From positions 1 to 32,295 of IMG/VR virus record IMGVR_UViG_3300020473_000085: 32,295 nucleotides of DNA, one strand, 5' to 3'. Both the position numbers and the translations under genes were made by a program. This document shows, one piece after another, positions 8,853-29,451 of the stretch. Source of the DNA: a virus. The notes under the pieces were generated by a model. The model saw nothing but the letters and a program-made list of their open reading frames with translations. It had not been told where the DNA came from and made no database searches. Positions within the stretch are counted from its first letter, which is position 1; each line of letters starts with the position of its first letter.

Positions 8853-10967
8853 CTATATTATGGTAATCGTACCAGACATGGATGAATGATACTCGCAGTT
8901 ATAATAATAAGTTGCTTTTGGAACTCCAGTAGTAGTCCAAGATACTGATGATGTGGATCCATTACCTGTAACTCCTTGAGGTCTCGCAGCAATAGAAGGT
9001 TGTCCTGGAGCTTGCCTATCACTAATCCAGAAAGGATGTCCACTCATATTTCCACTAAACTCTACTGTATCACCTTGGTTAATAACTATAGATGGGTCTC
9101 CATTGTTACTAAAGCTAGTCTGTCTATCATCACCAGTCATTATATAATCATTATTAGTTGTACTAACAGTAAATGGGAATGTTTTCACAAGTGGTCCTGG
9201 TGGTTGCCTGTAGAAATTATTAGTTCTTGGATACATCTGAGCATCTTGAACTAATTGAGGATCCCTACGTTCACCTTTCAGTTGATCTTTATACCACCCA
9301 CCTTGATACCCTGTATCATACCTTGGATTCCTAACATGAATCTCTAAGTTAGGACTATCAAAGAACAACCCACCATTTCCTCCACGGCATGTAGCATCAT
9401 CAAACCTAGCAGAAAATAGATCAAATCCTATATCATTATATCTTCCATGTTGTTGAATAAATGCAACGACATCACTGTTGGTGAATCTTTCTTTACCTGT
9501 TGCTAAACAAGCTGCCATTCCAGCAACCTGTGGTGATGCCATACTAGTTCCACTAATATTATGATACCAGTTACTGCCACCATACTTACCATCAGGTGTT
9601 CCAGCTCCTTGTAGTCCTGTGCTAGGATGAATACCATTTGGATCAACCCAACAAGAAACAATACTACTACCAGGAGCCCATACAGTAACTGCTGGTCCGA
9701 AATTTGAAAACGATGATCTTCTAAATTGAAAAGAAGTTCCAAGAGAACCTACAGCTATAACACCTTTAGCATTAGCAGGAGTAGATCCTTGCTGGTATTT
9801 AATACTTCCAACACCATTAAAGTAAACATAATTATTCCAATCAACATAAGATTCATGATTTGGATCTGGATGTGCTGCATAGAAATTGTTGTTACCCATT
9901 GCTGCTATAACAACTACACCATCCTCAATTGCATCTTCAATGTCTGCTCTCAATGCAATATAATCTAAATTAAATTTTCTCTTACTTGGACTTATTCCAA
10001 AGTCTATTTCCAATCCACCCATAGTCCATCCAGATGGATTGGGATTTGAACTATTATAAATTGTACCTCTATAATTTACACTACTAACATCACTTATAGA
10101 AATACCACTATCAAAAATACTTGATAGATTAGCACCATAACCCCAACTATGATTTGTAATCGTTGGATTTCTTTTTCCTGTCTCTGGATTGATAGGTTTA
10201 TATCTATGAAATGCTCTAAGATAATCAAAGATTAACATAGTACTTACAGCAGTTCCTTGGTTAGAAGGGTTACCAAGTACCTGCATACTATAGATATTTG
10301 CTTCAGGAGCCCATCCATAGTGTCTACCTGCAATGGTTCCTGCTACGTGAGTGCCATGAAATTCATAACAACCCAGTGATGAAAAATAATTAGGATATGG
10401 AGCACTAGGTATTGCTGCTCCATCATCATCTATACTAGTAACATATTGATTTAACTCAGCATACCAATCATACATCTGAAACCTATCTCTCATATCAGAT
10501 GGAGCTTTCCACTCTTCACAATCAAAAGCAACTGGGTCATCACAAACTACTACATCAACATGTCTACCATTATTAAATACCGTTACACTATCTGCAACTT
10601 CAGCAGATCCCCATTGATTCTTCCTTCTTTGTGCAGTATCTCCAGCACTATGAAGCTTAGCCCAGTCTCTATCATCTTGTAAATAACTTCCAGACTTACG
10701 AAACCATCCTGCTTGATCATAAGGTTCATTATTAACAGTATAAAAAGGTTCTGGATATATACCCTGATCCTCATACCTTTCTTCACACGCAAGAACTCTA
10801 GAGTCAGAACGTATAGTTGCTGCCTGTTCTTCAGTCATATAATACTGAGTGTTCCTACTGATAGGACGCTTCGTATGAAGCTTAAACCCATCAGATGTCA
10901 TGTCAGAATAAAAACCCTCTAGATCATCTCTACTCTTAAGGGTTACGATATAGATCTTATCAGCCAT
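8853..10967 (-). CDS. Subtilisin-like serine protease fused to a cupredoxin domain
   Basis: A 704-aa protein. Residues ~1-65 resemble an S8 propeptide (inhibitor I9 type). The S8 peptidase domain follows: Asp143 or 144 in VVVCDDP, His207 in HGTHVAG, Asn359 in AAMGNN (oxyanion) and Ser475 in SGTSMASP, all in the expected order. Residues ~595-704 form a second domain with blue-copper ligand spacing: His644 in GHPFWI, Cys691 in YYYNC, His694 and Met697 in CEYHSSM. No signal peptide is seen. It lies between two fibre genes, so I infer a virion-bound protease, perhaps for fibre maturation or for host surface proteins; the copper domain may be electron-transfer, copper-binding or structural. Start ATG 10967 lies 1 nt after the preceding stop. 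Confidence 0.9.
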   Translation of the reverse strand: MADKIYIVTLKSRDDLEGFYSDMTSDGFKLHTKRPISRNTQYYMTEEQAATIRSDSRVLACEERYEDQGIYPEPFYTVNNEPYDQAGWFRKSGSYLQDDRDWAKLHSAGDTAQRRKNQWGSAEVADSVTVFNNGRHVDVVVCDDPVAFDCEEWKAPSDMRDRFQMYDWYAELNQYVTSIDDDGAAIPSAPYPNYFSSLGCYEFHGTHVAGTIAGRHYGWAPEANIYSMQVLGNPSNQGTAVSTMLIFDYLRAFHRYKPINPETGKRNPTITNHSWGYGANLSSIFDSGISISDVSSVNYRGTIYNSSNPNPSGWTMGGLEIDFGISPSKRKFNLDYIALRADIEDAIEDGVVVIAAMGNNNFYAAHPDPNHESYVDWNNYVYFNGVGSIKYQQGSTPANAKGVIAVGSLGTSFQFRRSSFSNFGPAVTVWAPGSSIVSCWVDPNGIHPSTGLQGAGTPDGKYGGSNWYHNISGTSMASPQVAGMAACLATGKERFTNSDVVAFIQQHGRYNDIGFDLFSARFDDATCRGGNGGLFFDSPNLEIHVRNPRYDTGYQGGWYKDQLKGERRDPQLVQDAQMYPRTNNFYRQPPGPLVKTFPFTVSTTNNDYIMTGDDRQTSFSNNGDPSIVINQGDTVEFSGNMSGHPFWISDRQAPGQPSIAARPQGVTGNGSTSSVSWTTTGVPKATYYYNCEYHSSMSGTITII

Positions 10968-10968
10968 A

Positions 10969-12045
10969 TCATGCCTCTATCTGAACGAAGTGAACCGTTA
11001 CTGTTATGTTAGCAGAACTACCACTCTTGTTTACAACCTTAGCATATAGATTAGTACTAGGAGTTGTATCATCATTCCATCCTATAGTTCCTGGAGTAAT
11101 ATTCTGTACTGCTCCATCAGATGTAATGATTTCTGCTATGATACCTGTTCCTGGTAAAGGATCTGTTGTCTCATTCCTACTACTATCAGCACTTCTTGCT
11201 GGAATACTAGTATACAAAGTAACCCATGCAGCATGAGAAGTTTGAATCTTCAAAAGAGCATACGTTTTAACAGCAGTCATTTGAATATTGGAGACAGCAC
11301 CATCAAGAATATTTCCTGTTGATGCTTGAGCAGTAGTTCTTGATGTTAAACCTGTTGAAGCACCACCAGCACTAAGAACATTGATTGTTCCAAACATAGA
11401 AGGGTGTGCTGTACACTGATAATACAATGTATCAGGTGCATCCATTGGGACTAGGAATGTTAATGTGCTTCCACCAGCAGCATCTTGATTCGTTACACCA
11501 TCATTATATGCTGTTCCTCCACCTGCTTGAGCAACAGTAGACTGAATTCTAAATGGATGACCACCAGTTTCATTCTTAAACTTATAGGTCTGACCTCTTA
11601 CCAAATAAATTGTAGGATCATTGGCAGGTGTTGGGAATCCATCACCAGCAAAGATATAATCTGAACTACCATTTGCTGTTAGACTCCACTCAATCTCTGG
11701 GGCAGCAGTTAATACACCAGTGTCATCTGCTGCTGGAGCCCATGTAGATCCATCATACTTAAGAACATATCCTGTAGTAGGTGTACCACTTACAGTTACA
11801 TCAGTGAGATCATTTAAATCGTTAACAGATGACGTTGCAGATAAAGTATCGTTACTTATTGAGAGATTGTTACCTACTTTAATACCACCCTTTGTAGTAG
11901 CACTAGCAGTAGGTAATGAATATGCCAGATTTATTCCTTGTGCTGACCAACTATCGCCATCCCATGCCCATGTAACACCAGCAGCAGTGTGGGTTAAACT
12001 ACCATCAGTAGGTTCGTTTGTTGTTGAGGGGAAATTTATTGCCAT
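10969..12045 (-). CDS. Tail fibre-like protein with cupredoxin domain
   Basis: A 358-aa protein. It has the N-terminal fibre module (MAINFPS..., AGVTWAWDGDSW at about 22-33), a short segment DLNDLTDVTVSG... followed by YVLKYDGSTW (about 76-102), then a cupredoxin-like domain at about 115-225 with His163 in GHPFRI, Cys211 in LYYQC, His214 and Met217 in TAHPSMFG, the four ligands of a type 1 copper site. Residues ~259-358 match the C-terminus of the 594-aa fibre protein. It precedes the protease that carries a related copper domain. I infer a virion fibre or tail-tip component. Confidence 0.82.
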   Translation of the reverse strand: MAINFPSTTNEPTDGSLTHTAAGVTWAWDGDSWSAQGINLAYSLPTASATTKGGIKVGNNLSISNDTLSATSSVNDLNDLTDVTVSGTPTTGYVLKYDGSTWAPAADDTGVLTAAPEIEWSLTANGSSDYIFAGDGFPTPANDPTIYLVRGQTYKFKNETGGHPFRIQSTVAQAGGGTAYNDGVTNQDAAGGSTLTFLVPMDAPDTLYYQCTAHPSMFGTINVLSAGGASTGLTSRTTAQASTGNILDGAVSNIQMTAVKTYALLKIQTSHAAWVTLYTSIPARSADSSRNETTDPLPGTGIIAEIITSDGAVQNITPGTIGWNDDTTPSTNLYAKVVNKSGSSANITVTVHFVQIEA

Positions 12046-27449: not shown

Positions 27450-27662
27450 CTAGGATCTATTTATATCTCTAATATCCTTTACCCACGCACGAAACATCTC
27501 TCCACTCTCAGTGACACAGATAACATAGTTAACACCTGCTCTATGGATAGTTCCTTTCTGTCCTGTAATAGCATTCATTACAACATCACCCTCAACAAAC
27601 ACTTCCTTCTTACGGTAGTGTTGTCTTGTTGCTTGCTCACGTAGTTTCTTAAAGTTCTTCAA
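27450..27662 (-). CDS. Hypothetical basic protein (70 aa), TTG start
   Basis: A 70-aa basic protein: MKNFKKLREQATRQHYRKKE, then a small beta-like domain (VVMNAITGQKGTIHRAGVNYVICV). The start is TTG 27662, overlapping the TGA of the nucleotidyltransferase gene (TTGA), with GAGG 9 nt upstream; no ATG is available. The N-terminus (MKNF...) is loosely like capsid-targeting peptides. The 3' end contains the TATAAATA box for the next gene. The KOW-like turn GQKGTI may suggest RNA or protein contact, but this is weak. Confidence 0.64.
   Translation of the reverse strand: MKNFKKLREQATRQHYRKKEVFVEGDVVMNAITGQKGTIHRAGVNYVICVTESGEMFRAWVKDIRDINRS
27458..27465 (-). promoter_or_regulatory. T4-type late promoter (TATAAATA), inside gene end
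   Basis: The minus strand reads TATAAATA in the last codons of the 70-aa gene, with a predicted leader of about 23 nt to ATG 27429. Confidence 0.62.
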
Positions 27663-28240
27663 TTACCTTGCCTCACATCATTCATTAATTGTAAGCTATC
27701 CCACGTATTAAGTAAACCTCTAGTACCAAGCATGAACTTTGATGGCATATCATTATCTGCAAACTTTCTCATTAAAGAACCAGACATGGTAGAAGTATCA
27801 TCAAATATATCATAGTCCTCAAGATTTTTATCACTTGAAGTTCTAGTCTTCATAGGAGATTTAACTTCAATAGTCTTGAATGTGTGAGTCTTACCATTAG
27901 CAGCATTCAAAGCTTTAGAAAAGGATTCTTTTCTATCACTACCAACTATCATACAAATATGCTGATACTCACCCTGAAAATGCTCACATACTTTAAAAGC
28001 AGTCTTTAATTCAGGATCACCATTCCATATATGATCTTTATACTTGAAGAACATCTCCTTCATCCATTTAGTCTTAGTCCCAAATGACAAAGGATTCTTT
28101 TTCTTGTCCTGTGTGTGACTAGGAAAGATCCAATAGTCACACCTACCTGCTTCTTTAGCAACAGCCTGAACTAGTTCAAAATGTCCTACTGTTGGTGGAT
28201 TGAACCTACCAAATGTAAAGACTAATCGTTTTTCTGCCAT
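27659..28240 (-). CDS. Cytidylyltransferase-like / NMN adenylyltransferase-like nucleotidyltransferase
   Basis: A 193-aa protein. GRFNPPTVGH at 11-20 holds the T/HxGH nucleotide-binding motif, and SGSLMR at 153-158 resembles the C-terminal ISxTxxR motif of the nucleotidyltransferase alpha/beta-phosphodiesterase superfamily; VGSDR at 99-103 is also typical. Members join a nucleotide to NMN, pantetheine phosphate or polar alcohols. In T4-like phages NadM/NadV-type NAD genes occur, but the substrate cannot be read from sequence. ATG 28240 overlaps the ligase-like gene's TAA by 1 nt, so the two are co-translated. Confidence 0.85.
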   Translation of the reverse strand: MAEKRLVFTFGRFNPPTVGHFELVQAVAKEAGRCDYWIFPSHTQDKKKNPLSFGTKTKWMKEMFFKYKDHIWNGDPELKTAFKVCEHFQGEYQHICMIVGSDRKESFSKALNAANGKTHTFKTIEVKSPMKTRTSSDKNLEDYDIFDDTSTMSGSLMRKFADNDMPSKFMLGTRGLLNTWDSLQLMNDVRQGN

Positions 28241-29451
28241 TATCCTTTAACCCACCTATCAGCAACAGCATCCTTCTTAAAGTTTGCTTGGCTAAATCCT
28301 AAACGATCAACCAATTTAAATGCTTTAGTGCCATTTGCTATGGCAACATACCCTTCTGGATTAGTCATTTCAATACCATCGTCTGTTATAAGATAGGTTC
28401 CAAACTTCTCACCTTGCTGTAGCTTCTCTATGAAGATCTCCTTAGCATCCTGAATGATTTTATATAGGGACACAACCTTCTCAAAAGATTTAGCATTATC
28501 ATCAAGGAAATTCTCTCCATCATACAATTTCTTTAACTTCGCTGCTTTTGTCTTTGGTTGCTTCACAGCATCTGCTGCTTTCTTACACTCTTGACTGAAA
28601 TATTTTCTAAAATTTGACGTAAAATTAGTATCAACCTTCTTACCTACTCTCACATACTTATTAAAATACTGTTTCAACTTCGGTCCTACTGTAAGTGCAT
28701 CTTTATTTGCTATCTGATCTCTTATTATATTTAAAAAACCAGATGTATCACGAACCATACTAGAAGTACTAGTCTTGAGTCTAGATAGTCTTTGTTTTTC
28801 TGTCTGTGTTAATAACATATTAGTACCTAGAGTATCCAACTCAGCACTAATAACAAATACATCTTTACTATCCTTCAACTTACTGACATCATATCCAAAT
28901 GTTGCACTCATAGTAGAAATAGTATTACCAGTATAAGTGGTGTGAAATACTACTCCTATCTTAGCATTGTTTGCTTGACTAAAATCATCAGAATCATGTG
29001 GTATGGAATACATTATTGTGTTTGGTTTGAAGGTTAATGACCTAACACCATCAATAGTCTGAATTCTTTTATCATCTGTGAATAAAAGATCACCTTGTGC
29101 TACACCAGTGATACCTAAACTAGGCAAATACTTCAATGCTGACTTCAATTTCTTAACTAATCCAGGAGCATGTCCATGATTATTATCAATATCAGCATCT
29201 GAAAAATTAATCTTAGCATCCTTATTGAAAATAGATTTAGTACCAACAAAGAACTGTCCTGTACCAGGATAAGTACCACAGAATATAGCAGGAGCACCAT
29301 CCCACTTCGTAGTTATCTTAAAATTTCCAGTTGACTTAGTACTAAATGTCTTTGCAAGTAAATCTAAGAAAGCAAAAGCATCTGTTACACCCTGTTGTCC
29401 ATCCAACAGAATACTATCTTCTAAATGTTCTAGGTGAGTATTCTTAGACAT
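28240..29451 (-). CDS. Protein with nucleic-acid-ligase-like nucleotidyltransferase motifs
   Basis: A 403-aa protein. Lys49-x-Asp51-Gly52 in TTKWDGAPAIF matches motif I (KxDG) of covalent nucleotidyltransferases (DNA/RNA ligases). GTKSIFNK follows (~70-77), GDLLF at 120-124 could be motif III, and near the C-terminus EGYV at 366-369 followed by GTKAFKLVDR at 374-383 looks like motifs IV and V. The ~315 residues between motifs I and IV exceed the usual spacing, with a helical Lys-rich insertion at ~210-330, so this is a divergent or inserted variant. A ligase would join nucleic acid ends through AMP-lysine; role inferred only. Start ATG 29451 overlaps the previous stop (TGATG). Confidence 0.74.
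   Translation of the reverse strand: MSKNTHLEHLEDSILLDGQQGVTDAFAFLDLLAKTFSTKSTGNFKITTKWDGAPAIFCGTYPGTGQFFVGTKSIFNKDAKINFSDADIDNNHGHAPGLVKKLKSALKYLPSLGITGVAQGDLLFTDDKRIQTIDGVRSLTFKPNTIMYSIPHDSDDFSQANNAKIGVVFHTTYTGNTISTMSATFGYDVSKLKDSKDVFVISAELDTLGTNMLLTQTEKQRLSRLKTSTSSMVRDTSGFLNIIRDQIANKDALTVGPKLKQYFNKYVRVGKKVDTNFTSNFRKYFSQECKKAADAVKQPKTKAAKLKKLYDGENFLDDNAKSFEKVVSLYKIIQDAKEIFIEKLQQGEKFGTYLITDDGIEMTNPEGYVAIANGTKAFKLVDRLGFSQANFKKDAVADRWVKG

Follow-up and report, generated by a model that had tools for sequence, protein, structure and literature searches.

A near-universal gene family of T4-like cyanophages, DUF6267, is predicted to encode a diverged ligase-like nucleotidyltransferase

Do the T4-like cyanophages, which rank among the ocean's most abundant viruses, carry a ligase of their own? 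Homologues of g30 had not been found in cyanomyoviruses when the question was reviewed in 2010; the host ligase was then judged the likelier explanation, with unidentified distant homologues as the other possibility (PMC2984593). One reading frame in the 32,295-nt virus record analysed here (the window) bears on this question, as it had been proposed from the sequence to encode a divergent ligase-like nucleotidyltransferase. We found that, because its conserved residues and predicted shape are ligase-like, this protein may be the ligase which these phages were thought to lack.

The frame runs on the minus strand from an ATG at position 29451 to a stop codon ending at 28240 and its product is 403 aa long. 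When compared to Pfam the protein matched DUF6267 (PF19782) over profile positions 1–373 of 376 (E = 7.8e−119), with 397.8 bits against a curated cut-off of 27 bits. Its PHROG match was phrog_455 (E = 1.4e−112), and its counterpart in phage P-HM2 is annotated as T4-GC 71. DUF6267 is a large existing Pfam and PHROG family which has no assigned function and was named by no paper in the literature searched. The suggestion that the protein represents a new architecture was therefore not borne out: it is not isolated, and half of the members of its family lack the long insert described below.

The other genes of the window include mazG, a gp61-type primase, nrdA/nrdB, glutaredoxin, talC and tail genes (names beyond those tested were read from the translations), and their order matches the replication region of P-SSM2. 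The DUF6267 frame overlaps the stop codon of the 592-aa gene upstream and the start of the 193-aa gene downstream (Table 1). Among the phages examined which carry the long form of the protein, DUF6267 was found within the uvsX-gp41-mazG-gp61-nrdAB replication region. Elsewhere in the window, a 704-aa subtilisin-like protease is encoded among the tail-fibre genes (8853–10967, minus strand), and its C-terminal stretch resembles, by eye, part of the 358-aa protein at 10969–12045.

Table 1 Features of the DUF6267 locus, with positions in the window.
Feature	Position	Strand	Basis
DUF6267 protein (T4-GC 71, PHROG 455), predicted covalent nucleotidyltransferase/ligase-like enzyme	28240..29451	-	Pfam, PHROG, AF2
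Motif I K49-W-D-G-A-P54, Lys49 the predicted nucleotide-accepting lysine	29290..29307	-	K49, D51, G52 in 113/113
Motif III position Q119-G-D121 (within QGDLLF)	29089..29097	-	D121 113/113, Q119 112/113; strand 117-124
Motif IIIa position H170-T171, invariant pair	28939..28944	-	113/113; strand 165-174 (DSSP)
Lys-rich helical stretch (about residues 205-345) separating positions IIIa and IV	28417..28839	-	DSSP of AF2 model; short forms
Motif IV E366-G-Y-V369	28345..28356	-	E366, G367 113/113; opens strand 367-372
Motif V K379-L-V-D-R383	28303..28317	-	K379, R383 113/113; strand 376-381
HIGH-type, NMN-adenylyltransferase-like nucleotidyltransferase of 193 aa (T4-GC 190 type), downstream neighbour	27659..28240	-	PF01467
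70-aa conserved downstream protein	27450..27662	-	phrog_4808 E 8e-35; phrog_395 positions 207-270, E 2e-12
592-aa upstream neighbour, overlaps DUF6267 start codon	29451..31229	-	phrog_1462, E 1.9e-77

The motifs on which the original prediction was based (KWDG with Lys49, QGDLLF, EGYV and KLVDR) are all present, in the order I-III-IV-V. We scored conservation in 113 representatives with < 70% identity, to which 353 full-length relatives had been reduced. The residues found in all 113 were K49, D51, G52, G59, K72, D121, N144, Y148, H170, T171, N264, K337, E366, G367, K379, R383, F386 and N390. The conservation across homologues of Lys49, the Glu of EGYV and the final Lys, which the prediction had made its test, was thus complete, and since these residues were 100% invariant in such diverse representatives the motif set is more than chance. 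Further invariant or near-invariant residues lie at the N terminus (H6, H9, E11 and D12). Ligases usually have Glu at motif III and an aromatic residue at motif IIIa. In DUF6267 the acidic residue at the motif III position is not Glu but Asp (D121), invariant and on a beta strand, and the strand at the IIIa position (residues 165–174) carries the invariant H170-T171 plus a near-invariant Y173. In the long form E366 and K379 are 13 residues apart, equal to the distance between E227 and K240 of T4 Rnl1.

AlphaFold2 predicted the fold of the window protein (104 sequences) with a pLDDT of 93.0 and a pTM of 0.88, and that of a natural relative which lacks the insert (L218) with a pLDDT of 94.2 and a pTM of 0.89. 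K49 ends the strand formed by residues 44–49, a second strand follows, and the motif order is kept on beta strands. This placement on strands is as expected for the ligase superfamily, judged by Rnl1 and the DNA ligases. Only 20 residues follow R383; these form two helices with no further domain in the model, and neither an OB domain nor a motif VI was seen in the 403-aa protein after motif V.

When the insert-free relative was compared to the 350,542 chains of the PDB using Foldseek, the first-ranked match was the Thermococcus DNA ligase 3rr5 (E = 0.026, probability 0.85). All 11 matches with a probability ≥ 0.2 were ligases, comprising archaeal and human DNA ligases, including LIG1, and T4 Rnl2. 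NAD+-dependent ligases (3baa and 6krh) and a chain of a capping complex were found at lower ranks. In the BFVD database, the best reliable match outside DUF6267 was an annotated RNA ligase (probability 0.89). No PDB match reached E < 0.001, and the alignments were short with TM-scores of 0.25–0.35. These structural matches are weak one by one yet consistent. The full-length model gave noisy results, dominated by the insert and by carbonic anhydrases, which the insert-free relative resolved; the carbonic-anhydrase matches had a TM-score of about 0.08 and were discarded as background. The proposed likeness of the fold to ligases was therefore borne out in part: the predicted core ranks with DNA and RNA ligases, but at E-values no better than 0.026 and over short, low-TM alignments.

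Comparisons of sequences and profiles were less informative. By sequence, the 403-aa protein matched no ligase family and no PDB chain significantly, and in Pfam there was no match to PF01068, PF01653, PF09511 (Rnl1) or PF09414 (Rnl2). Searches of the PDB sequences with one sequence and two profiles yielded nothing beyond matches to the helical insert that were coiled-coil-like or due to chance, and alignments of the DUF6267 profile to T4 Rnl1, Rnl2 and gp30 using hhalign were not significant. In a decoy test with 26 targets Rnl1 ranked first, with the correct register of motifs IV and V; we do not count this as proof because its lead over the capsid protein gp24 was marginal. The lack of a significant sequence or profile match to ligases, together with Foldseek E-values above 0.001, is what would be expected if the protein were no nucleotidyltransferase and its ligase-like motifs had arisen by coincidence in an unrelated fold. 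We think this very unlikely, as five motif positions occur in the right order on the expected strands and are invariant over 113 diverse sequences, and every PDB match of appreciable probability was a ligase. The protein is very probably an enzyme of the ligase superfamily: the invariant motifs and the Foldseek ranking point to a diverged nucleotidyltransferase of the ligase type, as had been proposed, although this was not matched by significance in the sequence profiles.

The distance between motifs I and IV, which was originally given as about 315 residues, is 317 residues from K49 to E366, and the Lys-rich helical insert postulated between these motifs was seen in the AlphaFold2 model, where residues 216–345 form helices. 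Members of the family fall into two length classes. The long form, which includes the window copy, is about 400 aa in length and keeps motifs I and IV 317 residues apart. The short form, of about 290–300 aa, accounts for roughly half of the relatives sampled; its median distance between the two motifs is 235, and about 80–100 residues of the helical region are missing. The spacing is thus unusual in the window copy and in the long form but not across the family: it comes from a helical insert in one branch, which the short forms lack.

Relatives of the protein were found in about 470 phage records. Nearly all are T4-like phages that infect Synechococcus or Prochlorococcus, and the few others come from phages of Pelagibacter, Methylophilales, Vibrio and Stenotrophomonas. 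There was no relative among plasmids, and the Vibrio relative had no match in viral_contigs. By name, and not record by record, the counts for Synechococcus and Cyanophage records were 371 and 61 with DUF6267, 376 and 61 with gp41, and 374 and 61 with DUF6433. Nearly every marine T4-like cyanophage checked has DUF6267.

According to PMC7824862, a DNA-binding domain of the ligase type is encoded on its own in most of these phages, AAX44695.1 being an example. We identified this P-SSM2 protein (L438:18440-19063) as T4-GC 313, a member of DUF6433, and the DUF6433 profile gave a weak match (E = 0.003) to the N-terminal part of the DNA ligase of phage DLP6. PF01068 was found in 0 of 24 Kyanoviridae genomes or large contigs which carry DUF6267, and DUF6433 in 22 of them, the remaining two being contigs of 129–133 kb. 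In the 12 complete Kyanoviridae genomes there was no match to PF01653, PF09414 or PF09511 and no homologue of T4 Pnk. All eight Straboviridae records lacked both DUF6267 and DUF6433, and seven contained PF01068, the eighth being a 149-kb contig. A tblastn search with T4 gp30 gave no cyanophage genus among the ten commonest names listed. The co-occurrence of DUF6267 and DUF6433 may reflect shared ancestry, with both being core genes of the clade. DLP6 carries DUF6267, DUF6433 and an NMNAT-like protein along with a normal PF01068 DNA ligase, and a distant DUF6267 relative in Vibrio phage EniLVp02 is accompanied by a DNA ligase, Rnl1, Rnl2 and Pnk; because these two phages carry both, DUF6267 is not simply an alternative to gp30.

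Two other candidates were set aside. The P-SSM2 protein T4-GC 194 (L453:31271-32074), considered as another ligase, is annotated "tRNA ligase" but is class II aminoacyl-tRNA-synthetase-like (PF00152), and its label looks misleading. The 592-aa upstream neighbour, considered as a ligase DNA-binding domain, belongs to phrog_1462 and has no PDB match.

The same genomes bear on what such an enzyme would act on. The original prediction pointed to phage RNA repair which counters tRNA damage by the host. An RNA-end ligase of this kind, delivered with the virion or made early, would, like T4 Rnl1, mend RNAs (tRNAs or others) that host defences have cut. The spacing and sequence of motifs IV and V (EGYVA...K) are indeed closest to T4 Rnl1, and the BFVD match outside the family was to an RNA ligase. 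We do not favour this role, since T4 Pnk, Rnl1 and Rnl2 were absent from the 12 complete Kyanoviridae genomes and, in the long-form phages examined, the gene is placed in the replication region; the best PDB matches were also DNA ligases. Overall we give the reading about one chance in four.

Early delivery of a counter-defence enzyme would, on the other hand, suit a further feature of the family. We searched N termini for leaders of the T4 capsid-targeting type, the criterion being an aromatic residue around each of positions 4 and 7 and a Glu around position 10; in T4, targeting is affected by leader positions 4 and 7, and processing by positions 8 and 10 (PMC9026906). Such leaders were found in 24 of 62 long-form DUF6267 representatives, 58 of 171 GC 190-type proteins and 51 of 136 proteins of the 70-aa type, with L143, L205, L133, L111 and L131 among the loci which bear them. 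The controls were 36/1137 other forward ORFs, 0/716 reverse ORFs and 0/51 short-form DUF6267 representatives. Fisher tests gave P = 1e−17 for long-form DUF6267 and P = 1e−31 for the GC 190-type proteins, values which are optimistic because the sequences are related. These 24 long-form relatives start like MLNYQEYLTE or MKSYKQFLVE, similar to the injected T4 proteins IPII/IPIII (MKTYQEFIAE); in contrast, no such leader is present in the window copy or in any of the 51 short-form representatives. Judging by their N termini, this suggests that the leader-bearing DUF6267, GC 190-type and 70-aa-type proteins form a set of head-packaged, injected enzymes, so that some members of DUF6267 may be delivered at infection.

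The GC 190-type protein is the immediate downstream neighbour of DUF6267, and mass spectrometry has found T4-GC 190 in the virions of S-SM1 (PMC3037559). For the 193-aa protein of the window, the best NCBIfam match, below threshold, was to nicotinate/nicotinamide-nucleotide adenylyltransferase. An NMNAT-like gene was found within 3 kb downstream of DUF6267 at 93 of 120 long-form and 30 of 97 short-form loci, with positions taken by midpoints since the frames overlap. The two proteins are fused in L113, L122 and the S-PM2 protein A0A0M6VVW4. The 70-aa protein which comes next in the window is homologous to the C-terminal part of the larger GC 190 proteins.

Some related arrangements were also observed. 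At L023:2594-5212 an 873-aa open frame joins an upstream segment (phrog_3560) to DUF6267, as a possible fusion or an in-frame gene junction. In one S-PM2 record (L085, AJ630128) DUF6267 is split over two frames, whereas the S-PM2 record LN828717 matches in one piece, and BFVD contains a 591-aa fused S-PM2 protein. In DLP6 (L466) an open frame of 737 aa, starting at about record position 53994, includes the NMNAT-like protein and a basic region; its further C-terminal domains look ParB/sulfiredoxin-like by eye.

Tight linkage to and natural fusion with an NMNAT-like protein (93/120 long-form loci; L113 and L122) would also fit a ligase-fold enzyme which does not join nucleic acids but transfers an NMP, such as AMP, to a small molecule, a protein or an RNA 5′ end, in one pathway with its neighbour. 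Such a role would agree with the missing nucleic-acid-binding OB domain and with the coexistence of DUF6267 and true ligases in DLP6 and EniLVp02. However, the linkage would fit the recycling of NMN by an NAD+-dependent ligase too, many short-form phages have DUF6267 away from the NMNAT-like gene, and the structural matches were mainly nick-sealing ligases. We consider this kind of transfer rather unlikely, at around one chance in five.

The best explanation, which we hold to be probable, places DUF6267 in the polynucleotide ligase/capping-enzyme superfamily as a diverged covalent nucleotidyltransferase; it probably joins polynucleotides, and its favoured putative role is that of the ligase of T4-like cyanophages. 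Taken separately, the joining of polynucleotides is a putative activity which we think somewhat more probable than its absence, and a function as the DNA ligase of T4-like cyanophages is a possibility to which we give about one chance in three. In the proposed reaction, Lys49 would attack ATP or NAD+ to form lysyl-AMP, with D121 (III), the strand carrying H170/T171 (IIIa), E366 (IV) and K379 (V) holding it in place, and the AMP would then be passed to a 5′-phosphate so that a nick or break could be sealed. The helical insert may stand in for the missing OB or C-terminal domain in binding nucleic acid. In a Kyanoviridae genome without gp30, DUF6267 could supply the catalytic core and DUF6433 a separate DNA-binding domain, and if DUF6267 uses NAD+, its NMNAT-like neighbour could turn NMN back into NAD+. 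In the boldest form of this idea, which we regard as improbable, a split ligase made up of these three parts replaced the T4 DNA ligase, and the catalytic and NMNAT-like parts, which bear leaders in many members, would enter the cell along with the phage DNA, ready to seal nicks.

We present this as a hypothesis for the function of a gene which nearly all T4-like cyanophages checked carry, and whose activity is predicted. It provides a concrete candidate for the missing ligase: a predicted active-site lysine is defined, DUF6433 is a possible partner in DNA binding and an NMNAT-like enzyme is linked to it; because the gene, the lysine and the partners can now be named, the question is open to direct bench testing.

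Among known systems, DUF6267 resembles T4 RNA ligase 1 (gp63, PF09511) in its motif order I-III-IV-V and in having EGYVA followed by Lys 13 residues on. It differs from Rnl1 in having Asp rather than Glu at motif III, a helical insert before motif IV and no C-terminal domain after motif V, and the profile similarity between the two is not significant. With the ATP-dependent DNA ligases (PF01068; Thermococcus 3rr5 and human LIG1), which gave the best structural matches to the insert-free core, it has the KxDG, EG and K motifs in common, but it lacks a PF01068 match, an OB domain, motif VI and a fused DNA-binding domain, for which there is the separate DUF6433 in the same genomes. At the IIIa position, where ligases have an aromatic residue, the invariant pair is His-Thr, with the near-invariant Y173 on the same strand. 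The NAD+-dependent DNA ligase LigA (PF01653) shares the KxDG lysine, and 3baa and 6krh were among the lower-ranked structural matches; unlike LigA, DUF6267 has no PF01653 match and no recognisable NAD+-binding Ia domain.
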